Shown piece by piece: positions 31,186 to 40,849 of a stretch of DNA of 64,000 nucleotides. Positions within the stretch are counted from its first letter, which is position 1. Every line of letters starts with the position of its first letter. Position numbers and translations under genes: made by a program. The notes under the pieces were generated by a model. That model was not told the DNA's origin, made no database searches, and saw nothing but the letters and a program-made list of their open reading frames with translations. The DNA comes from an uncultured Pseudomonadota bacterium (GTDB taxonomy: Bacteria; Myxococcota_A; UBA796; GCA-2862545): the NCBI GenBank assembly GCA_913061235.1, contig CAJXTB010000018.1:62001-126000 (forward strand). Direction: 5' to 3'.

Positions 31186-32352
31186 TCACTCTTGGATGGG
31201 CTCCTCTAGCAACCTGAACTTGCCGAAGTCGAACGGCTGGCCGGGCCCCTTCTCCACGCGCTCAACAACCTCACGAATGCCCTGGTCACGCAGTAGGTCG
31301 GCGCGGTGAAAGCAGTAGGGCATGTTGCCGCGCTTGCCCAGAAGCGTGTGCGCAGTCCAAGAGCAGCCGCCACGGCAGACATCGGCGTAGTAGCAGGTCT
31401 TACAGTGTCCCCACAGCTCATCCGTGGTCCGGTCGCGCGCGAAGCGAAGCTCAGCGGTGTTGTCCCACAGGTCCTTCAGGGAACGCTCGCGGACGTTGCC
31501 TCCGACGTACGGGGCGCTCGGTAGCGACGGACAGCCCTTGATGTCGCCGTTGCTCTCAATGCCCAGCGAGTAGCGTCCGGCGACGCACCCTTGAAAGAAG
31601 TGGCCGCCGCGAAGGTCCGCTTCGTGGGGGCCGAAGTAGCCGAGGTTGTTCGCCGCTGTCACCGACACACCGCGCTCACGGCCAATCTTCGCCATTGCCG
31701 CGAGCCGCGGAACAAGCTCCAGCATGTCGTAGGGTTGAAGCAAGCGCTCCGGCATGTCCGCTGCACGTCCCATCGGACCGGTGATCTGGACCTGCCAAGC
31801 GGCAACTCCTGCGTCGAAGAGAGCCTCAGCGAGCGGCTCAATCTCGGGCATATTGAGACGATTGAACTGCGTATTGGCAGATATGGTCATCCCCGCTTCA
31901 CGCCCGTGAGCAATGGCATTCATGGCCGCCTTGTACGACCCGCGCATGTTGCGCAGCAGGTCGTGGGTCGCCTCAAGACCGTCGATGGACAGGCTCATCT
32001 GCGACAGACCGGCATCCGCGGCACGTCGAGCCATCGCAGCGGTCACACCTCGACCACCGGTGGTCATGCCGCAGTGAATGCCGTGGGCCGCGACCATTGA
32101 GATGATGTCGAGCCAGTCCGGATGCAGATACGCCTCGCCGCCAATGAAGACGACCTCCCGCGTGCCCATGTCCGCCAGCTGCTGGGCGACGTCGCGCATC
32201 TCGTCCATGGACAGTTCTTCGTGCCGAGGACGCCCCGCACGCGACCCACAGTGGGAGCAGGCAAGGTCGCATTTCAGCGTGAGCTCCCACACTACGTAGG
32301 CAGGAGCAAAGTCATCTTTCGTGGTGGCCGTACGGCGATTGGGAGCGGGCAT
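31186..32352 (-). CDS. Radical SAM / SPASM-domain enzyme (possible peptide maturase)
   Basis: A 388-residue radical S-adenosylmethionine enzyme. The [4Fe-4S] motif is CDLACSHC (Cys28, 32, 35), followed by GGEAYLHPDW. The C-terminal SPASM domain has the complete seven-cysteine pattern (Cys256, 274, 317, 320, 326, 330, 347), enough for two auxiliary clusters. SPASM enzymes mostly modify ribosomal peptides or proteins (anaerobic sulfatase maturases, PqqE, sactipeptide synthases). The two genes downstream on the same strand encode paralogous MopE-like proteins, which are candidate substrates. The ATG at 32352 is chosen; a GTG at 32382 is also possible, and neither has a strong ribosome binding site. 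Substrate and chemistry are unproven. Confidence 0.88.
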   Translation of the reverse strand: MPAPNRRTATTKDDFAPAYVVWELTLKCDLACSHCGSRAGRPRHEELSMDEMRDVAQQLADMGTREVVFIGGEAYLHPDWLDIISMVAAHGIHCGMTTGGRGVTAAMARRAADAGLSQMSLSIDGLEATHDLLRNMRGSYKAAMNAIAHGREAGMTISANTQFNRLNMPEIEPLAEALFDAGVAAWQVQITGPMGRAADMPERLLQPYDMLELVPRLAAMAKIGRERGVSVTAANNLGYFGPHEADLRGGHFFQGCVAGRYSLGIESNGDIKGCPSLPSAPYVGGNVRERSLKDLWDNTAELRFARDRTTDELWGHCKTCYYADVCRGGCSWTAHTLLGKRGNMPYCFHRADLLRDQGIREVVERVEKGPGQPFDFGKFRLLEEPIQE

Positions 32353-32413
32353 GCCGCAGTGTACCCCAAACTGCTGGGGCACTCAGCGATCTGCACGGTC
32401 CATCAGACGTACG

Positions 32414-33094
32414 CTAGTTGTCGCCGCCAGTCTGTAGACGCAAGATGTCGCTCAATTCGACGGGAATACCGTTGACGGACGGACGCGGATTGCCCGATGT
32501 GTAGTCCATCTCGTCGACAACACCGACCAAGCGCTCTTCGATGTACACCTCGTTGCCGTCGACATCTGTACCCGTCACCGAGAAGCTGTACTCGCCTTCC
32601 GGCAGACGGTCGCCATCAATGCCACGACCATCCCAGTTCACCGTGCCCTCACCGGCTGCGATGTTTCCGACCTCAATGGTGTCGACCACGTTTCCAGTCT
32701 CGTCCATGACGCGAACGGTGACGGCACCCGCAGCAGCTTTGGCGTCATAGTGAAGCGCTTGGTCTCCCTCGCCACTGTACGAGAATCGATCGCTCGCGGC
32801 GGTCACTTCGGTGCCGAGCAAGTTGGCCATGGAGGAACTGTTGAGGGCGGCAATGCCGTACGTCTGTTCTTGCATCAGGTCACGCATTCCCATCAGCTGC
32901 TCCACACTTGTGAACTGTGCGAGCTGAGCAATGAAGTCCTCATTGGACATGGGATTGGCGGGGTCCTGATTCTGTAATTGAGTGGTCAACAGGCTGAGAA
33001 AGGCATCTTGACCAAGCTCAGTGTCTCCTCCAGCTGGCGTGGCTGGGGCGTCAGACGCGAACAGGGCGGAAGAGGGTCCGGCGATGGGGTCCAT
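32414..33094 (-). CDS. flgD: Flagellar hook-capping protein FlgD
   Basis: A 226-residue scaffold that caps the growing flagellar hook. The conserved N-terminal region LGQDAFLSLLTTQLQNQDPANPMSNEDFIAQLAQFTSVEQL is unmistakable, allowing 'QDAFLSLLTTQLQNQDP' and 'NPMSNEDFIAQLAQFTS' as hallmarks. The C-terminal half is the Ig-like/tudor hook-cap domain (VRVMDETGNVVDTIEVG, GTVNWDGRGIDGDRLPEGEY). The ATG at 33094 has GGAGA upstream. It follows the FliK-like gene by 18 bases. The hook gene flgE, which normally follows, is absent; the next gene on this strand is the radical SAM gene. Confidence 0.93.
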   Translation of the reverse strand: MDPIAGPSSALFASDAPATPAGGDTELGQDAFLSLLTTQLQNQDPANPMSNEDFIAQLAQFTSVEQLMGMRDLMQEQTYGIAALNSSSMANLLGTEVTAASDRFSYSGEGDQALHYDAKAAAGAVTVRVMDETGNVVDTIEVGNIAAGEGTVNWDGRGIDGDRLPEGEYSFSVTGTDVDGNEVYIEERLVGVVDEMDYTSGNPRPSVNGIPVELSDILRLQTGGDN

Positions 33095-33112
33095 GAGAAA
33101 TCTCCGAGAGAG

Positions 33113-34396
33113 TTAGAGCAGCGCGCCGCGACGAGAGTCGCGACGCTCTTGGTGCTTGTGCTGACGCCGTCGATGACGGCGCTCCGCTTGGTCTTGTTCT
33201 GATCGTTCAAACTGGCCTAAGTCGTAGCCACCGCGCTTCAGGGACTCGCGCAGTTCGGCCTGGACACCCTTCATCACGGGCTTGACGGCATCCGCGCCGA
33301 GCAGGGCAACATCCACTTCGCCATCTACGGTCCGGACTTCGACAGCCAGGTCGTCGTCAATGTCGACTCGGACCACGTCTAGGTCCAGCGCAGCCACCGG
33401 TAGTTCTGGGGTGTCGACAGGTATGCTGGTGTCTACGGATGTGTTGGTATCCATGCTTTCTAGCGTGTCTACCGAGACAAGAACCGGCTCAGCGAGCGGC
33501 ATCGCATCGAGTGTGCGCTGCTGAATGGGGTCTACGCGCTTGAGTGGTACGGGCGCGTCGAGGTCGTGCTGTACCTCAACGGAGCCGTCACTCTCCAAGT
33601 CATCGAAGGCGACGTCGTGGGCCATCGATTCTTCGACTGAAGTGGGGACTAACGCTTGCGAAACCTGAACAATTCGAGACGAACGAACTGGCTCGACGGC
33701 AGCGAAACCAGCCACGCGTACGTCAAAGGTCTCGGCATCTGATGCGATTGTAGTCGCGGCACCCGACGCATCCGCTGAACTAGGTACGCCCTGGGCACTG
33801 AGCTCAACGGGTGGAACGTACATCGATTCCGTCACGCGGGTGAGTGCTGGGTCCAGGGAGAACTGCGGAGCCGCACTGGATATCTGCTCGCGGGCGTCGT
33901 CTTTCGGCGCGTCAGCAGCCGCGGCTGGCTGAACGCTGGTTCGTGGAGGCGGAGTCCACTGAATGGAGGCCATGAAGACATGACGGGCATCATCCAGCTC
34001 GACCAGCGCTGCGGTGTCGGGCGAGAAGACGGTCTCCGAAGGCCGTGAATCGGCTTGCTCCAACGTCGCCACCGGCTCGTTCTGACGTGTGAAGTCGCCA
34101 ACCATTCCGGCGGAACCGGTCGACTCACTAGACGTAAGGTGTTCTACAGCGTCCGCTGCGACGACGGTTGGCTCACCAACTACCGTTGGCTTTTCCGGCA
34201 AAAACCTTTGCGACTCCTTGGTAATGGAAGCATTCAAATCCGGGTTCTCTGCCAGAAGCTCTTGTGAGACTTCGGCCAGGAGTCCGTCAAACGACGCGAA
34301 CGCAGTCGGCGCAGTGGAGGGTGCAGACGGTGCGGACTCCCCGACCCCTTTGGGCAGGTCGGTGAAGTGGGCACTCAATGCCAACGCAACTGTCAC
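33113..34396 (-). CDS. fliK: Flagellar hook-length control protein (FliK-like)
   Basis: A 427-residue protein with a low-complexity Ser/Ala/Thr/Val-rich first two thirds and a C-terminal domain of the Flg_hook type (LDLDVVRVDIDDDLAVEVRTV, VKPVMKGVQAELRESLKRGGYDLGQF) before a basic tail. FliK measures hook length and switches export from hook to filament subunits. Identification rests on the C-terminal domain, the disordered N-terminal part and the place between MotE-like and FlgD genes. The GTG start at 34396 overlaps the previous stop in GTGA. Confidence 0.8.
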   Translation of the reverse strand: MTVALALSAHFTDLPKGVGESAPSAPSTAPTAFASFDGLLAEVSQELLAENPDLNASITKESQRFLPEKPTVVGEPTVVAADAVEHLTSSESTGSAGMVGDFTRQNEPVATLEQADSRPSETVFSPDTAALVELDDARHVFMASIQWTPPPRTSVQPAAAADAPKDDAREQISSAAPQFSLDPALTRVTESMYVPPVELSAQGVPSSADASGAATTIASDAETFDVRVAGFAAVEPVRSSRIVQVSQALVPTSVEESMAHDVAFDDLESDGSVEVQHDLDAPVPLKRVDPIQQRTLDAMPLAEPVLVSVDTLESMDTNTSVDTSIPVDTPELPVAALDLDVVRVDIDDDLAVEVRTVDGEVDVALLGADAVKPVMKGVQAELRESLKRGGYDLGQFERSEQDQAERRHRRRQHKHQERRDSRRGALL

Positions 34397-34938
34397 AAGC
34401 CCTCCGGGCGGTCAATGGGAGCCGCTAGAAGCTCTGCGAGGTCTGCTGCCTTTGAAGGGTCCATCTTGGCCAGTGCTTTTCCCGCTTTTGCTGGAGACAT
34501 TCGTCGCAGAACCTCCACAGCAAGCTCGGGACTCGTCTCCGAGAGCAGCGGTGCGGCCTGAGCGTCCCTCATAGACTCGACCCGTCGAACGAGGTCTACA
34601 ACACGGGCTTCTCGTGCTTCATCCATTCCATCCAAGAGTCCGGAGATCTCGGTCCGCAGCGATTCAAGTCGCTCAAGGCGAGATTCCAAGTCGGACTGCA
34701 CACCCGTCAACGCACTCTCTTGCTCTACGATTCCCCGTTCCCGACGGTCGAGCTCACGGGACCTCTGTTCCAGCTGCTCGGCAAGCTCGGTCAGCTCTCG
34801 CGCGGTTCCCCATGGGACTTCAGACCGTGTCGCAGAGGGACCAGTGCCGGATGCATTCGGTCCACCAAAGGCAGCGCCGCTCACCACAACAATGGCAAGC
34901 ACGACCGCTAGCCGGCCCCAGCGGCGAAAACGGCTCAT
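34393..34938 (-). CDS. MotE-like flagellar chaperone
   Basis: A 181-residue protein with an N-terminal membrane segment (LAVVLAIVVVSGAAFGG), a long coiled coil (about 50-115) and a C-terminal helical domain of the MgtE-N/FliG-like type (SPELAVEVLRRMSPAKAGKALAKMDPSKAADLAELL). This is the layout of MotE, the chaperone of the stator protein MotC in alphaproteobacteria, and of YlxF-like proteins encoded beside FliJ in many bacteria. The ATG overlaps the FliJ stop codon in ATGA, so translation is coupled. The exact role in this organism is inferred. Confidence 0.82.
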   Translation of the reverse strand: MSRFRRWGRLAVVLAIVVVSGAAFGGPNASGTGPSATRSEVPWGTARELTELAEQLEQRSRELDRRERGIVEQESALTGVQSDLESRLERLESLRTEISGLLDGMDEAREARVVDLVRRVESMRDAQAAPLLSETSPELAVEVLRRMSPAKAGKALAKMDPSKAADLAELLAAPIDRPEGL

Positions 34939-35354
34939 GACTCACCTCTCAGCCAGCCAGTTCGGGCCATCTCGTCGAGCTCAGACTGCTCCTTTTTCAT
35001 GGCTTCGGCCCGTCGTCTCTCTTGGCGTCGCTCAAACAAGCGCTCGGCAACCTTCTGTTCGGTCTCTCGCTGGCGACACAGCGCGTCGTGTTCTTCTACT
35101 TGTTTGTCCAAGCGCTGAACATCCATGGCCACAGCCCGACGTTTCATCTCGCCGTTCAAGACAAAGGCTCCTCGTCCAACCGCTTCTTCGCCAGTCCGAG
35201 AGTGTCCGGTGTAGGCATCACGGACACGCGATGCCCACTCCTGTTCAAGGTCAGCCGCGGCATTTCGCTCGGTCTGAACCTTGGCACGCTCAGCCAGAGC
35301 GAGTTTCGCTTGTAGAGCCCGAAGGCGGGCAATGCGCGCCACAACGTCTTTCAT
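34935..35354 (-). CDS. fliJ: Flagellar export chaperone FliJ
   Basis: A 139-residue, almost fully helical, charged protein forming a coiled coil, as expected for FliJ, which links the FliI ATPase to the export gate and recycles chaperones. The N-terminal heptads (VVARIARLRALQAKLALAERA) and the central basic/acidic coil match the family. The ATG at 35354 has a GGAG site; a longer frame upstream lacks family character. It heads the four-gene minus-strand flagellar unit (fliJ, MotE-like, fliK, flgD). FliI, which usually precedes FliJ, is not here; the gene upstream is a divergent receiver. Confidence 0.82.
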   Translation of the reverse strand: MKDVVARIARLRALQAKLALAERAKVQTERNAAADLEQEWASRVRDAYTGHSRTGEEAVGRGAFVLNGEMKRRAVAMDVQRLDKQVEEHDALCRQRETEQKVAERLFERRQERRRAEAMKKEQSELDEMARTGWLRGES

Positions 35355-35446
35355 GACAACTCCGATGATGGACCATCGGAATCGCAGACTGGGACTTAAG
35401 AAATCCCGCATGTCCACCGACAGACTGGGTGGAGCCACATCAGTCT

Positions 35447-35812
35447 ATGCACGTTCTCATTGTCGATGACAGCCGCGCCATGCGCCTCTACATCCGTAGA
35501 GCACTTCGCCGCATGGACGTCACCGCTATCTGTGTGACCGAAGCCACAGACCCCATGCATGCATGGCGACTGATGCGGACAACTGCCTTTGACTTGGTCC
35601 TGTCGGACTGGAACATGCCACAGATGACCGGCTTGGAACTCCTCAAGCGACTTCGACGCTCCGGCGTAAAGACTCCATTCGGGTTCATCTCCGTGGAGGT
35701 CTCAAACGCGTCCTCCGATGCGGCACGTGACGCAGGTGCTGAGTTCCTACTCAACAAGCCCTTCAGCCAATCTGCTTTCAACGCCGCCATTGTGCCGCTC
35801 ACCTCCGCATGA
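35447..35812 (+). CDS. CheY-like single-domain response regulator
   Basis: A 121-residue receiver domain. The acidic pair is in VLIVDDSRAMR, the phospho-acceptor Asp is in DLVLSDWNMPQMTGLELL, and the conserved Lys is in LLNKPFSQ. With no output domain it should act by protein-protein contact, as CheY does at the flagellar switch. The ATG at 35447 is chosen because the receiver fold begins there; a GTG six codons upstream is possible. Its stop overlaps the next start in ATGA, beginning a tightly coupled three-gene unit. Divergent from the flagellar unit with 92 bases between. Confidence 0.92.
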   Translation: MHVLIVDDSRAMRLYIRRALRRMDVTAICVTEATDPMHAWRLMRTTAFDLVLSDWNMPQMTGLELLKRLRRSGVKTPFGFISVEVSNASSDAARDAGAEFLLNKPFSQSAFNAAIVPLTSA

Positions 35813-36285
35813 GTAAACGCCTTCAGTCCCTCTCGGAGATCAGCGAGCTACTCGCTACGTTGTTCGACCGCGACCTACACGTAAAGCAGGTGGACGGTGT
35901 GGGCGGGCCCGCAGGCGCCATTGCCTGCTACCGATACGCCAACAATGGACTCGCTGGCGCTCTGTGGGTGGACCCTGTGTTTGCGCTGGCGACCACATGT
36001 AGCCTCTCCCTCATGGAGCCAGACCAGGCCATGAAGCGCGTGGAAGAGGACCGGTTCCTCCCCAGAGATTGGCACAACAACTTTCGTGAAATCGCCAACA
36101 TCTGTTGCCGGTTCTTCGCGGCCCCAGAAGCACCGCGGGTGGTCCTCGACCACGTGTGGATTGCTCCAGACAACCCTCCTCAAACACTGATGAACGACAT
36201 GCACACGCTGCTAGAACACCGCATCCTACGCGTTGACTTTGGGGAATTCGGCATTGGCCACCTGCATGCGGTGGCGACTGCATGA
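35809..36285 (+). CDS. Putative CheX/CheC-like protein with ExxN motif
   Basis: A 158-residue protein not recognised with certainty. Around residues 87-101 it reads DWHNNFREIANICCRF, where Glu94-x-x-Asn97 matches the catalytic ExxN of CheX/CheC/FliY-type CheY phosphatases, in which a helix carries the GExxN signature. The protein is of CheX size and is encoded between a CheY-like receiver and a CheA-like kinase with ATGA overlaps on both sides. I therefore infer dephosphorylation of the neighbouring receiver. Only this one motif and the context support the assignment; sequence outside it was not matched. Confidence 0.6.
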   Translation: MSKRLQSLSEISELLATLFDRDLHVKQVDGVGGPAGAIACYRYANNGLAGALWVDPVFALATTCSLSLMEPDQAMKRVEEDRFLPRDWHNNFREIANICCRFFAAPEAPRVVLDHVWIAPDNPPQTLMNDMHTLLEHRILRVDFGEFGIGHLHAVATA

Positions 36286-37202
36286 CCGCTCTACTCGACC
36301 GTCTGTGGCGGGTGGACGGCTTTCAAGACTTTGCCGTTGAGCTGGCCATCGCTCGACGCCAGCTGCAGGCCATCATCCTTGCCAACGAAGATGCCTACCC
36401 CCCCATTCAGCAACGTCGCGAAGCACATGAGTCGTACAGACGGCTGGTCTGTCGCGCAGAAGCCCTCAAACTCTGGGGAGTCTGTGAGGTCCTACAGACG
36501 GTCTGCCATCTGTTGGACCCAGACCGCATCCATCCTGGAAGTGGCGCGGAGTACGGACGCCGCGTCTTCGCCATCGGCAACGCCCTGGACCGCATCACGC
36601 GTGACGTGGCCATGACGGTCTCACAGTCCAGCGAATGGGTCCCGCCACCGCTGGTTGAGGGTGACAGTCATCAAGCAGACTCGGCCCTACTGCTCGAAAA
36701 CGGTGCACGAGCGGCCATGGACATGGCACGCCGCCTCGGACGACTCATTCGCGTTCGCGTCGACCAAAGCCCGGTGACAGTTCCATCTCTCCTGCTCCCG
36801 GTATTTCATCGCATGGCGCTACAGCTTGCTCGAAACGCTGTGGTCCACGGTATCGAAGACACTCTGGACCGACGGGCATCCGGCAAGCCGGCAGCAGCCG
36901 TCATCAACATGGCGGTCCGAACCGAAGGAACGCTCGCCGTTCTACACGTCAAGGATGATGGACGGGGCATTGATGTCGATGCCGCACGAGCCCCGCAAGC
37001 GGCAACACCAAGCCAGCTCTGGCAGGCCATTGCCGCACCCGGCTTCTCCACCGCTGGTGACGATGTCCGTTCGTACGCCGGGCGAGGCGTTGGGTTGACC
37101 ACCATCCAGAACATTCTCGAACGCTTGGGCGGCCATGCCGAAGCTCGAACATGGGCCGGACACGGGACTCACATCCGCCTGTGCCTTCCCACAGAGTCGT
37201 AG
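36282..37202 (+). CDS. CheA-type histidine-kinase catalytic domain protein, reduced
   Basis: A 306-residue protein whose last 140 residues form a HATPase of CheA type: N-box LARNAVVHGIED (Asn185, His189), G1 box DDGRGID (225-231), APGFSTAGDDV and G2 box GRGVGL (267-272). The PGFSTA and HGIED wording is specific to CheA. The first ~130 residues are helical but lack the HxxKG phospho-site of a P1/Hpt domain, and there is no CheW-like P5 domain. His49 in EAHESYRR could be a remnant. It therefore either phosphorylates the neighbouring receiver unconventionally or serves as a sensor ATPase. ATGA overlap with the CheX-like gene. Confidence 0.78.
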   Translation: MTALLDRLWRVDGFQDFAVELAIARRQLQAIILANEDAYPPIQQRREAHESYRRLVCRAEALKLWGVCEVLQTVCHLLDPDRIHPGSGAEYGRRVFAIGNALDRITRDVAMTVSQSSEWVPPPLVEGDSHQADSALLLENGARAAMDMARRLGRLIRVRVDQSPVTVPSLLLPVFHRMALQLARNAVVHGIEDTLDRRASGKPAAAVINMAVRTEGTLAVLHVKDDGRGIDVDAARAPQAATPSQLWQAIAAPGFSTAGDDVRSYAGRGVGLTTIQNILERLGGHAEARTWAGHGTHIRLCLPTES

Positions 37203-37292
37203 TTCACCGGGTCCCTCGCAAAAAACCACTTTACTCGTCCCCTACTCCGTCCGAACAACAAGCAATAGCCGACGCCCCTCCCTGGAGTCACC

Positions 37293-38348
37293 ATGCACGC
37301 CCACGCCACAACCCACGATGTCCTGCCCGACGCCGCGAAGACCATTGTGTTGTCTTTCAATGCGCAATGGCGTGACCGTGCCACCCGCATTCTTGAGGCG
37401 GATGGTCACGCCATCGTGGTCTGTGAAGCCGCGACGCCAGAGACGGTGTTCACCTACCTAAAGAACAACTCGGTGAGCGCCATTGTGGTCGACCCGTACG
37501 CGCTACAAGACAGGTGCTCCGACACCATCCGAGCGTGGACTCGGCAGGACCCTGTTGCGGTCATTGTGGCCTCGCAGACTCCGGCAATGGCCATCGAAGC
37601 TCTGAGTGCTGGCGCCATCATCGCGACCCCAGCACCCGACTCAGACGACCTTGGCGCGCCAAACGCAGACCAACTGCGCAAAGCCGTCGCACTGTCGTTG
37701 ACCAGTCGGGCCGTCTACCGTCCGCCAACCTCCCTGCACACTCTGCCTGACCTCCCTTTCGCACGTGCCGAGCAGCGGACCATCGCCATTGTCGGCGGAG
37801 TGGGTGGCGCTGCGGGTCTTGAGTCACTCATCGCCCACTTGCCACCTTCTGTACCAGGAATCGTGGCAATGCTCGACATCCATCCGTCTTGGCTCGATGC
37901 ACTCGCTGCTCGCCTGGACCGCGTAGGTGTGCTCGACGTCACAGTCGGTGCGGATGGAGACATGCTGCGTCCTGGCACAGTGTGCCTGACACCCACCGAC
38001 CGCCAGGTCACCGTGGCACGCAGCGCAGACGGACAGTTCATCCTGCAAGTGGGCGAACGCCTCACCGCGCCGCCGTCACCAGAAGCGTTCCTCCGCTCCA
38101 TCGGCGCCAACGCGCGTTCGAGCGCACTTGGCGTACTTCTGGGTAGCCATGATGAGGGAGCAGCACGCGGTCTACAGATCGTGGCCGAGAATGGCGGGCG
38201 AATCTTGGTCGAGGACCCCGAAACGGCCGTCGCAAGCCCTGCCGGAGCGTTCGCACTTCGCGAAGGAATCGTCAGCGAAGCCACCGAACTACGGCGTCTT
38301 CCATGGCGAATCCTTGAAGAAGCACTGACGAGCGTCTTCGACAAGTAG
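37293..38348 (+). CDS. CheB-like protein with receiver-like and degenerate methylesterase domains
   Basis: A 351-residue protein arranged as CheB: a receiver-like domain (about 15-115, Asp67 in AIVVDPYAL) and a CheB methylesterase-like domain (about 160-345). Conserved framework segments are LLGSHDEGAARGLQIVAENGG and RPGTVCLTPTDRQVTV. The nucleophile loop reads IAIVGGVGG instead of IAIGASTGG, so the catalytic Ser is Gly169. The His position (TQHMPP in CheB) reads as Asp, and the catalytic Asp position as Glu in my alignment. It is unlikely to be an active methylesterase and may be a binding or regulatory protein. The ATG at 37293 has GGAG upstream; it lies 90 bases after the CheA-like gene. 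Confidence 0.75.
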   Translation: MHAHATTHDVLPDAAKTIVLSFNAQWRDRATRILEADGHAIVVCEAATPETVFTYLKNNSVSAIVVDPYALQDRCSDTIRAWTRQDPVAVIVASQTPAMAIEALSAGAIIATPAPDSDDLGAPNADQLRKAVALSLTSRAVYRPPTSLHTLPDLPFARAEQRTIAIVGGVGGAAGLESLIAHLPPSVPGIVAMLDIHPSWLDALAARLDRVGVLDVTVGADGDMLRPGTVCLTPTDRQVTVARSADGQFILQVGERLTAPPSPEAFLRSIGANARSSALGVLLGSHDEGAARGLQIVAENGGRILVEDPETAVASPAGAFALREGIVSEATELRRLPWRILEEALTSVFDK

Positions 38349-38350
38349 AC

Positions 38351-38372
38351 TCAGCGGGCGAGGTCCCGCTGA
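38351..38372 (+). terminator. GC-rich hairpin after the CheB-like gene
   Basis: TCAGCGGG (38351-38358) and CCCGCTGA (38365-38372) form a perfect 8-bp stem with a 6-base loop, two bases after the stop codon. It has no T-run, so it may be a weak or factor-dependent terminator, or an RNA-end stabiliser. Confidence 0.45.
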
Positions 38373-38404
38373 CATCTCCACTACCGCCCCTGTACACCGA
38401 GTGG

Positions 38405-39448
38405 ATGCGCCAAGCCCTAGACGAGGCTGTACCGTCCACTGAGGCTCGAGCTACTTGCAGTGCATGCGCCATGTGCGACGGTCCAACATCACCGCCACGG
38501 GCCGTTGCTGCATTCTCACCGTCGGTCACGTGCTGCACGTATATCCCCACTCTGTCGAATATCGCAGTTGGACGTATCTTATTGGGCGACGACTCCCTTG
38601 GAGGTCGCAGCTCAGTTGTAGCACGCATCGGCCGCCACGACGCCGTGACCCCAGTCGGGCTGGGCTGGCCACATGCACAGGGCGAGCTGTACAAAGACTC
38701 GCAAGCACACTTTGGGCGACATGAGGGCCTGCGCTGCCCCCACTTCGTCACGACAGAACAAGGCGGACGCTGCGGAATCTGGCGCGACCGCAACGCGACC
38801 TGCGCCACATGGTTCTGCAAACACGACCGCGGAGAGGCCGGCCGGCGGGTGTGGATGGCGATTCGTGACCTCTTGGGTACAGTCGACGGCCAGCTCGCCT
38901 GGCACGCACTCGACGCTCTAGGAATCTCTGAGGAGCGTCGCGAACGCCTTGTGCCTCGGGCAGGCTTGCTTCGCGGCTACGACCTTGTTGATGGTCACCG
39001 GGGCCCACCAAAAATTGCAGACCGCAAGGCGGTGTGGGGTCGTTGGTACGGTCGCGAGACAGCATTCTACGAAGCATGCGCACAGCTCGTTGACGGCTAC
39101 AGCTGGGACGACATCCGACGCATCGTTGGGCGAACACTCGACGCCCCACTTGCAGCCGTCACAGAAGCCATCCGTGCACTACGCCCCCGGCCGCTACCCA
39201 CAGCACCGGTCCAAGGGAAGCTCACCCGACACGAGCATACCGACGGGAAAACACTGGTCAGCGGGTACTCTACCTACGACTCATTGGTTCTCAGCACCGA
39301 GCAGAGCGACGCGCTGAACCTGTTCGATGGCGCGCCTCTGCCATTGGTTCGCCACCGTCTACAGGAGATTGGCCTGACCATCGACGATGCCACACTTCAG
39401 CAGTGGCTCGATGCCGAGCTGCTTCTGCCGAGCAAAGACACACGCTAG
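38405..39448 (+). CDS. Cys-rich protein of unknown function
   Basis: A 347-residue protein with nine cysteines in its first 140 residues: Cys18, 21 and 24 (TCSACAMC), Cys43 and 44 (SVTCCTYIP), Cys111, 123, 133 and 138 (LRCPHF, GRCGIW, ATCATWFCKH). The pattern resembles YkgJ-like zinc or iron-sulfur cysteine clusters, and the Cys-x9-12 spacing around RCPHF...CGIW...C suggests metal binding. The last 200 residues are helical with no recognised motif. No signal peptide, so cytosolic. It lies in the chemotaxis-like region, 56 bases after the CheB-like gene, and converges on the HDOD gene with only 4 bases between the stops. I do not recognise the family. Confidence 0.72.
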   Translation: MRQALDEAVPSTEARATCSACAMCDGPTSPPRAVAAFSPSVTCCTYIPTLSNIAVGRILLGDDSLGGRSSVVARIGRHDAVTPVGLGWPHAQGELYKDSQAHFGRHEGLRCPHFVTTEQGGRCGIWRDRNATCATWFCKHDRGEAGRRVWMAIRDLLGTVDGQLAWHALDALGISEERRERLVPRAGLLRGYDLVDGHRGPPKIADRKAVWGRWYGRETAFYEACAQLVDGYSWDDIRRIVGRTLDAPLAAVTEAIRALRPRPLPTAPVQGKLTRHEHTDGKTLVSGYSTYDSLVLSTEQSDALNLFDGAPLPLVRHRLQEIGLTIDDATLQQWLDAELLLPSKDTR

Positions 39449-39452
39449 AGCG

Positions 39453-40310
39453 CTAGCCTGCGAGCAATCCTTCGATCTGTTGGACCTTCGATTCTACGCT
39501 GAGCAGCAACTTGTCGACGTCACTGCGGTCGAGAACCAAAGACGGCAGCGGCTGATTTGTCATGCGGTAGAGCATGCCGTCCACACCGAGGCCGCGACCC
39601 GTCAGGTAGGCCAACGTATCGGCGGCGTGAATGACCTGGACCAAGGCAGAATTCGAACGAGCATCGTCGGGCCGATGGTGGAACCGAATGGCGTCCACCA
39701 AAGACGACGGAAGGCCCCAAGCCTCTGCAACGCGCGCGCCAAGCTCCGCATGGTCAATCCCCAGTAACAGCCGCTCAATGGCGTCAAAACTAAGGTCCTG
39801 GCGGGACTCCAGCGTGTCGTTTAGCCGCCGGCCAAGACTCATCAGAGCCCCGCTCGCAACCAGCTTTCCTACGTCTACCCAAAGTCCTGCCGTGTAGGCC
39901 ATAGGGGCTGAGACCTTCGCGCGTACAGCCAAGGCTTCCGCCAACAAGCCAACACGAATGCTGTGGTCCCAGAGGGCATCAACGTCCATGCCGTAGCCGT
40001 CTAGACGCTCTAGGCTAATCGTGCGCATTCCGCGAGCGGTGACGGCACGAAGCAGCCATGCTTCGCCCAGAATCGACAGTGCCTCGTCAGCGGTCTCAAC
40101 CGGCGCACTGCGCTGCCGAACCATGCCAGAGTTGGCCATTCGTAGAGCATCAGCCACCAAACCCGGCTCCGAGCGGACAATCTCTGAGACCTGCCGGCGT
40201 GAGTGGTTGGGGTCGGCAATGGCCGCGAGTAGTCGAAGGACGGCCCTCGGAATCGACGGGAGCTCGACACCATCTTCGAGGGCATCAACAACATCCTGGG
40301 CACCAATCAT
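39453..40310 (-). CDS. HDOD-domain signalling protein
   Basis: A 285-residue HDOD protein (a metal-free relative of HD phosphohydrolases). Recognised by LPSIPRAVLRLLAAIADPNHSRRQVSEIV at the start, the SEPGLVADALRMANSGM segment, the ALSILGEAWLLRAV helix and FHHRPDD near the end. HDOD proteins of myxobacteria and Xanthomonas take part in signalling, motility and cyclic-dinucleotide control, but the biochemical activity is generally unknown. Its start overlaps the CheD-like gene stop in ATGA, so the two are co-translated. A second HDOD gene occurs at 53285. Confidence 0.88.
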   Translation of the reverse strand: MIGAQDVVDALEDGVELPSIPRAVLRLLAAIADPNHSRRQVSEIVRSEPGLVADALRMANSGMVRQRSAPVETADEALSILGEAWLLRAVTARGMRTISLERLDGYGMDVDALWDHSIRVGLLAEALAVRAKVSAPMAYTAGLWVDVGKLVASGALMSLGRRLNDTLESRQDLSFDAIERLLLGIDHAELGARVAEAWGLPSSLVDAIRFHHRPDDARSNSALVQVIHAADTLAYLTGRGLGVDGMLYRMTNQPLPSLVLDRSDVDKLLLSVESKVQQIEGLLAG

Positions 40311-40849
40311 GGCTGACCTCCACTCATCACTACCAACAACTGCCCGTGCATCGCTTGATGTACATGTCGGGCTCTTGACCCGCCAAGATGGCGGGACCGA
40401 ACCACAAGACCATTGGCCGTCAACATTACTTCGACCGCCCGAACGAGGCGCAATGGGCCGTCGTAGGTTGGATGGTTGCTCATCAAGCTACTGCCACCAA
40501 CTAGCTGAACCTGAACATCTGCAGGCGCGACATTAAGCTCGCCAAGGACCCGAACCAGCTCGGCAATCCCGCGGTCTGCGAACGCAAACGGCATGGTCTG
40601 GCCAAGGGCTAGGTGATGACGTGCCGCTGGATAGGCGACGTGCAGAAGCCCCGAGATCGACAGACCCGGAACGTGAAAGCACACAACGACGGTCGAGCCA
40701 ACGGCCCGACACGTGAGTGCAGGCCCAGAGTTGATCAAGGCCAGCTCACCAACCTGCACACCCCGACTGGCAATGTCCCTCAGGAAACCCGTCCAATGGG
40801 CCCGGATGGGCTGCTTTGGCAGATGAGTAACCGGCATATTGGACGTCAT
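40307..40849 (-). CDS. CheD-like protein lacking the catalytic cysteine
   Basis: A 180-residue protein with the CheD fold signature: VGELALI, AVGSTVVVCFHVPGL, SGLLHVAYPA, FADRGIAELVRVL, VQLVGGSSL and a GGSRARHVH segment near the end. CheD deamidates chemoreceptor glutamines using Cys and His in GSC and AH. Here GSC is GST (Thr53), while the His (His70) is kept, so deamidase activity is doubtful. CheD also binds CheC to stimulate phosphatase activity, a role that could survive. The ATG at 40849 is preferred because GGAGG lies eight bases upstream. It overlaps the HDOD start. Confidence 0.78.
   Translation of the reverse strand: MTSNMPVTHLPKQPIRAHWTGFLRDIASRGVQVGELALINSGPALTCRAVGSTVVVCFHVPGLSISGLLHVAYPAARHHLALGQTMPFAFADRGIAELVRVLGELNVAPADVQVQLVGGSSLMSNHPTYDGPLRLVRAVEVMLTANGLVVRSRHLGGSRARHVHQAMHGQLLVVMSGGQP

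Follow-up and report, generated by a model that had tools for sequence, protein, structure and literature searches.

Known systems and the cluster in the window

Chemotaxis of the type known from Bacillus subtilis and Thermotoga maritima, in which CheX or CheC acts together with CheD, is the closest described counterpart of a seven-gene cluster in a 64,000-nucleotide stretch of DNA (the window) from an uncultured Pseudomonadota bacterium placed in Myxococcota_A by GTDB (assembly GCA_913061235.1, contig CAJXTB010000018.1, positions 62,001 to 126,000). The cluster has homologs of CheY, the CheA P4 domain, CheB and CheD of that type, together with a candidate phosphatase of the CheX fold, whereas its host has no receptor, CheW, CheR or P5 domain, the catalytic residues of CheB and CheD are lost, and the P1-like domain has no histidine at the usual site. 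In B. subtilis, binding of CheD to CheC, which depends on phosphorylated CheY (CheY-P), outweighs the deamidase activity of CheD (PMC3513319). The likeness to this pair would lie in a CheD that acts mainly by binding and is tuned by CheY-P through a CheC-type phosphatase; the B. subtilis CheD, however, is catalytically competent and ultimately targets the receptor, whereas the host of the window has no receptor, and a CheX-type protein with a single ExxN motif takes the place of CheC. Histidine phosphotransfer (Hpt) domains without the histidine and bipartite CheA proteins are both on record (PMC10782961). CheA3 and CheA4 of Rhodobacter sphaeroides resemble the kinase described below in being domain reduced, and CheA3 has P1-like domains without the histidine (PMC10782961), but each has retained a CheW/P5 domain and operates at a cluster of receptors. 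The Cle proteins of Caulobacter (PMC5677366) show that CheY-like proteins can also control the motor independently of the receptor pathway; they differ in being tuned by cyclic di-GMP (c-di-GMP) through a C-terminal arginine-rich extension that the CheY-like protein of the window lacks.

With a probability of roughly 0.58, we interpret the locus as a former chemotaxis cluster that has lost its receptor side (methyl-accepting chemotaxis proteins or MCPs, CheW, CheR and P5) and may now form a receptor-free control module around CheY. This interpretation draws on the lack of CheW, MCP and CheR in a nearly complete genome with a full motor operon, on complete clusters of the same parts in two genomes of the same family, on a CheY-CheX pair kept without MCPs in a sister genus and conserved far more widely, and on the precedent of B. 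subtilis CheD. The seven genes, labeled p1 to p7 in window order, are as follows (G000 denotes the host genome; other G and L numbers denote comparison genomes and loci).

35447..35812, forward strand: p1, CheY-like single receiver (Response_reg, 5e-23)
35809..36285, forward strand: p2, single-ExxN protein of the CheX/CheC/FliM fold, predicted CheY-P phosphatase (AlphaFold model, VIA-align comparison, E94/N97)
36282..37202, forward strand: p3, reduced CheA with a putative P1-like bundle and a P4 ATPase (HATPase_c, 4.5e-12; fold match)
37293..38348, forward strand: p4, CheB-like putative pseudoenzyme with a degenerate receiver and a methylesterase fold (CheB_methylest, 1e-21)
38405..39448, forward strand: p5, Cys-rich protein, a neighbor probably outside the system (order-wide family)
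39453..40310, reverse strand: p6, HDOD-domain protein (HDOD, 4e-40)
40307..40849, reverse strand: p7, CheD-like protein with Cys replaced by Thr53 and His70 kept (CheD, 5e-8)

The seven open reading frames, which lie within 35447-40849, and their coordinates are as the original prediction had them, including the ATGA overlaps of p1/p2 (35809-35812), p2/p3 (36282-36285) and, on the opposite strand, p7/p6 (40307-40310). The start of p1 is likely the ATG at 35447, with a GTG at 35429 possible, and a scan for promoters and terminators gave no signal above chance. Assignment of the proteins to Che folds or families also stood, through Pfam (p1, p3, p4, p6 and p7, with the families listed above) and through structure prediction for p2 and p3; p2 and p5 had no matches in Pfam or NCBIfam.

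The receptor side is missing from the host genome and its counterparts are found in relatives

In the host genome, an assembly of 72 contigs and 7.18 Mb that is 99% complete, there is no match to the CheW/P5 domain (PF01584), to CheR (PF01739) or to the MCP signaling domain (PF00015), the last of which was detected in seven control genomes. The absence of CheW, CheR and receptor genes first remarked for the window alone is thus genome-wide, and the input to the proposed module cannot be a chemoreceptor of a known kind. Contig C3 carries an intact MotA-MotB-FliL-FliM-FliN-FliP-FliQ-FliR-FlhB operon, and FlhA is also present. The host FliM (L305, G000:C3:90796-91599) was missed by Pfam and recovered with an order-specific profile. 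FliM proteins of this order (L155, L157-L160, L300-L309), including those of genomes with chemoreceptors, do not have the N-terminal CheY-docking motif LSxxExDAL, which is present in FliM of neighboring families of the class (L151-L153, L156). Six Hpt domains are encoded by the host, two of them as stand-alone proteins on contig C38, beside a hybrid kinase.

Complete che clusters occur within the same family. That of G019 (L041) comprises a fused CheY-CheX, CheD, CheY, CheA, CheW, MCP, CheR, CheB and HDOD, while that of G010 (L054) reads MCP-CheR-CheB-HDOD-CheYX, so that CheB and HDOD genes are adjacent in both. In G035 the genes run CheR-CheD-HDOD-CheY (L043), and CheD and HDOD overlap there by 4 bases (ATGA), as they do in the window. 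Judged by sequence similarity, p6 is related to the HDOD gene of the order's complete che clusters (1e-31 to 1e-39, versus 2.6e-11 for the next HDOD protein of the host itself). Since the clusters of these relatives share the same parts, the locus in the window corresponds to the chemotaxis cluster of the order, HDOD gene included, minus its receptor side. G012, from a flagellated and MCP-free sister genus, has only a CheY-CheX pair, next to an isolated P1 domain whose histidine is intact (L039); this mirrors the window, where a P4 occurs and the P1 histidine does not. No CheA P4 match was reported for G012 at an E value of 1e-12, in a genome that is only 77% complete. The stand-alone P1/Hpt gene of G012 (L039:8165-8596) is divergent from its CheY-CheX pair.

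Among 38 genomes searched for both CheB and MCP, a CheB-like match without any MCP occurs in the host alone. MCPs are absent from 12 of the 21 genomes of this set that have FlhA, which indicates that flagella without chemoreceptors recur in the order. The search for the same gene order in Myxococcota thus gave a divided answer: the subunits CheY-CheX, CheD-HDOD and CheB-HDOD are conserved, but the complete order was found in none of 379 genomes searched with p3 and p7. That result, together with the exclusion of p5 discussed below, speaks against the earlier view of all seven genes as one chemotaxis unit.

The CheB- and CheD-like proteins have lost their catalytic residues

The catalytic Ser, His and Asp are each present in 88 of 88 other CheB sequences, while p4 has Gly169, Asp195 and Glu288 in their place, the third position depending on the alignment (Glu288 in one, Gly289 in another). 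Comparison with relatives and with PDB sequences thus bears out the Ser-to-Gly169 replacement in the original prediction, which understated the loss in that the His and Asp are gone as well. Only 3 of 10 fully invariant CheB positions remain in p4. Its receiver still has an Asp at the phosphorylation position, but the acidic pair and the Lys are gone. Homology nevertheless extends over residues 22-343, that is, the receiver and the catalytic domain, of which both 6ymz and 1a2o are homologs (E value, 6e-16). In p7, which matches the CheD family PF03975 at 5e-8 and T. maritima CheD (2f9z) at 4.6e-9 over 148 residues, the catalytic Cys found in 40 of 41 relatives is Thr53, as had been claimed and as both relatives and PDB sequences confirm, while His70 (His in 41 of 41 relatives) is kept. 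By analogy with B. subtilis CheD, it is plausible that p4 and p7 are former receptor-modifying enzymes turned binding proteins. A search of the literature for catalytically dead CheB returned nothing specific.

CheY and its CheX-like partner are intact

The phosphorylation residues of p1 (D7, D8, D54 and K104) are invariant in the alignment, and the protein ends straight after its receiver domain. Its partner p2 was assigned by structure, since a p2 profile searched against PDB sequences gave no CheX match, and neither PF13690 nor the NCBIfam CheX models matched any of 46 family members at an E value of 0.1; the CheX profile also offered too few conserved columns for a scan of genome contigs. 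An AlphaFold model built from 46 sequences (predicted local distance difference test [pLDDT], 92) has the FliM middle domain, CheX, CheC and FliY as its best matches in Foldseek and VIA-align (Z, 10 to 13), with 38 chains at a Z of at least 8 and the next unrelated fold at 3.3 in VIA-align. This predicted fold confirms p2 as a member of the CheX/CheC/FliM superfamily. E94 and N97 are the only two residues invariant across the 46 family members, so the fold and this pair together uphold its description as an ExxN CheX-like protein. CheX-type ExxN proteins dephosphorylate CheY-P.

The 80 closest relatives of p1 were retained when 84,980 species were scanned. A p2 homolog lies within 2 kb of 77 of them, and CheB-like and CheR-like genes lie within 6 kb of 64 each. 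The pair spans Planctomycetota, Actinobacteria, Proteobacteria, Acidobacteria and Myxococcota. CheY and p2 form a widespread CheY-CheX module that is apparently unmodeled by Pfam and NCBIfam. In 77 of the 80 loci (L220-L299) the ExxN family directly follows CheY. No p2 relatives were found on plasmid records.

A reduced CheA kinase

The C-terminal half of p3 is a P4 ATPase with N, G1, F and G2 boxes, and it retains all 14 positions that are fully invariant in about 80 CheA-type kinases. The protein stops where P4 stops and so has no P5; P2 is also missing, and P3 was not detected. No P1 or Hpt match was obtained for its N terminus with Pfam, hmmsearch or hhalign against a local P1 profile. In a single-sequence model, whose poor P4 half was left out of use, the N terminus folds into a four-helix bundle (pLDDT, 56 to 85 over residues 11-110). 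In structure, this bundle (about residues 6-111) best matches P1 of T. maritima CheA (1tqg), at a Z of 12.5 and a root mean square deviation of 2.7, with 103 of 105 residues aligned. The N terminus is likely a P1-like domain on the strength of this predicted fold, its sole support, and since four-helix bundles are common, the assignment is likely rather than certain. A CheA-type kinase without phosphorylation site and P5 had been described correctly, while the supposed absence of P1 gives way to a P1-like bundle without the site. A few residues from the expected site, His49 is still a possible candidate acceptor.

No close relatives of p3 were found in the 84,980 species, and no ortholog of its N terminus was found in the 379 Myxococcota genomes. 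Derivation of p3 from the host's own P5-less Hpt-HATPase kinases (contigs C16 and C4) was rejected on a tree that groups it with P5-bearing CheAs, in which the long branch of p3 (2.07 for P4) stands next to another long branch and leaves the placement unsure. Short CheA-like proteins of G030, G056, G059 and G026 were likewise rejected as the same system, their neighbors being unrelated. Two host Hpt-HATPase kinases (L205:2229-4496 and L207:3873-5483) have a CheA-like ATPase and no CheW domain, and one of them has a DAHL domain.

Maintenance, decay and possible functions

The main rival to a maintained module is slow decay, in which chemotaxis was lost along with the receptors and the genes are drifting toward pseudogenes, leaving the cluster inactive or only its CheY-CheX part at work. 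The frequency of MCP-free flagellated genomes in the order is consistent with this, as is the length of the P4 branch; moreover, the other MCP-free genomes have neither CheB nor CheD, so the host could represent a late stage of loss. However, every frame is open and has the codon composition of a gene, and erosion is, as far as sequence can tell, selective: it has spared the phosphotransfer parts (ATP site, CheY and the ExxN site) but has removed the active sites of the CheB- and CheD-like proteins, whose genes remain open. The difference in retained invariant positions between P4 (14/14) and CheB (3/10) has a hypergeometric probability of 3.5e-4 by our own estimate. Furthermore, neutral simulation of the p4 frame, continued until the encoded residue differed at 62% of codons (in p4, this share of conserved CheB positions is altered), introduced about 8 to 13 stops on average, and none of 400 runs was free of stops. 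The simulation and the selective sparing together favor maintenance over drift, and the cluster is apparently maintained by selection.

Several observations weigh against a maintained, motor-directed module. Stop-free p4 frames reached 1 to 6% at half the simulated change, and for p7 the stop-free probability was 1 to 5%, a weaker result. No orthologous cluster was found elsewhere from which purifying selection could be gauged directly. In p3, the phospho-acceptor His is missing at the equivalent site by our reading, and the main change in P4 replaces the N-box His of 78 of 80 kinases with Gln181. Finally, output to the motor is only presumed, given a FliM without the usual CheY-docking motif. 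Decay keeps some weight, and we consider it unlikely rather than negligible.

If the receptor-free module is maintained, phosphate would reach CheY with the help of P4, through either an unusual acceptor or an Hpt domain whose gene lies elsewhere, and p2 would remove it again; CheY-P would then govern how the flagellar motor rotates or how fast. The products of p4, p6 and p7 may bind and regulate the core of CheY, CheX and kinase, comparable to CheD of B. subtilis, whose regulation works chiefly through CheY-P-dependent binding to CheC. In its most specific form, with CheB and CheD now noncatalytic regulators and a CheY/CheX/P4 core that drives the motor from an internal cue through an unusual or distant phospho-acceptor, we offer this only tentatively. 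The original prediction of a receptor-free signaling device in which methylation-type enzymes became binding proteins is, overall, partly supported. A working phosphorelay, in which an active p3 P4 domain phosphorylates a distant stand-alone Hpt protein, would accord with the intact invariant positions of P4, the two Hpt genes that stand alone on contig C38, the mirror-image arrangement in G012 and the documented bipartite CheA proteins (PMC10782961), but those two Hpt genes sit by their own hybrid kinase, away from the che genes, and we think this arrangement improbable. It is also conceivable that the cluster serves gene expression, the envelope or c-di-GMP, as in systems with alternative cellular functions, and that its flagellar neighborhood is incidental. 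The missing docking peptide of FliM and the nonmotility genes on the other side of the cluster fit such a use, which we nevertheless regard as very improbable given the divergent flagellar genes directly upstream and a CheY of a type that pairs with CheX in clusters where CheB and CheR are mostly present.

Neighboring genes

The Cys-rich gene p5 had been counted as a component of the cluster. Of 63 genomes of the order, 19 have members of its family, which is marked by eight invariant cysteines; some of these genomes, such as G001, lack FlhA, and no che genes were found near its relatives within the flanks fetched. It is probably a neighbor and not part of the chemotaxis set. The family has a paralog on the same contig (L202:17104-18279) and possibly represents a metal or Fe-S protein. 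Genes on the far side of the cluster are not motility genes, and those upstream are as follows.

32414..35438, reverse strand: divergent flagellar genes encoding FlgD, FliK-like, MgtE_N/FliG_M-like and FliJ-like proteins

FlgD (32414-33094) is matched at 2.7e-21, while the matches to FliJ (0.013) and FliK (0.045) are weak. The MgtE_N/FliG_M-like protein at 34393-34938, with the FliJ-like and FliK-like genes on either side, is perhaps a MotE-type chaperone, and a Radical SAM/SPASM protein (31186-32382) adjoins FlgD.

Implications

The p2 proteins represent a widespread family of CheX-fold partners of CheY without a Pfam or NCBIfam model. The question raised in B. subtilis, to what extent CheD and CheB act by binding and not by catalysis, would become testable at this locus. 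If our interpretation is correct, chemotaxis adaptation enzymes can persist as pseudoenzymes after their receptors are gone, and control by CheY can be uncoupled from receptors and rewired.

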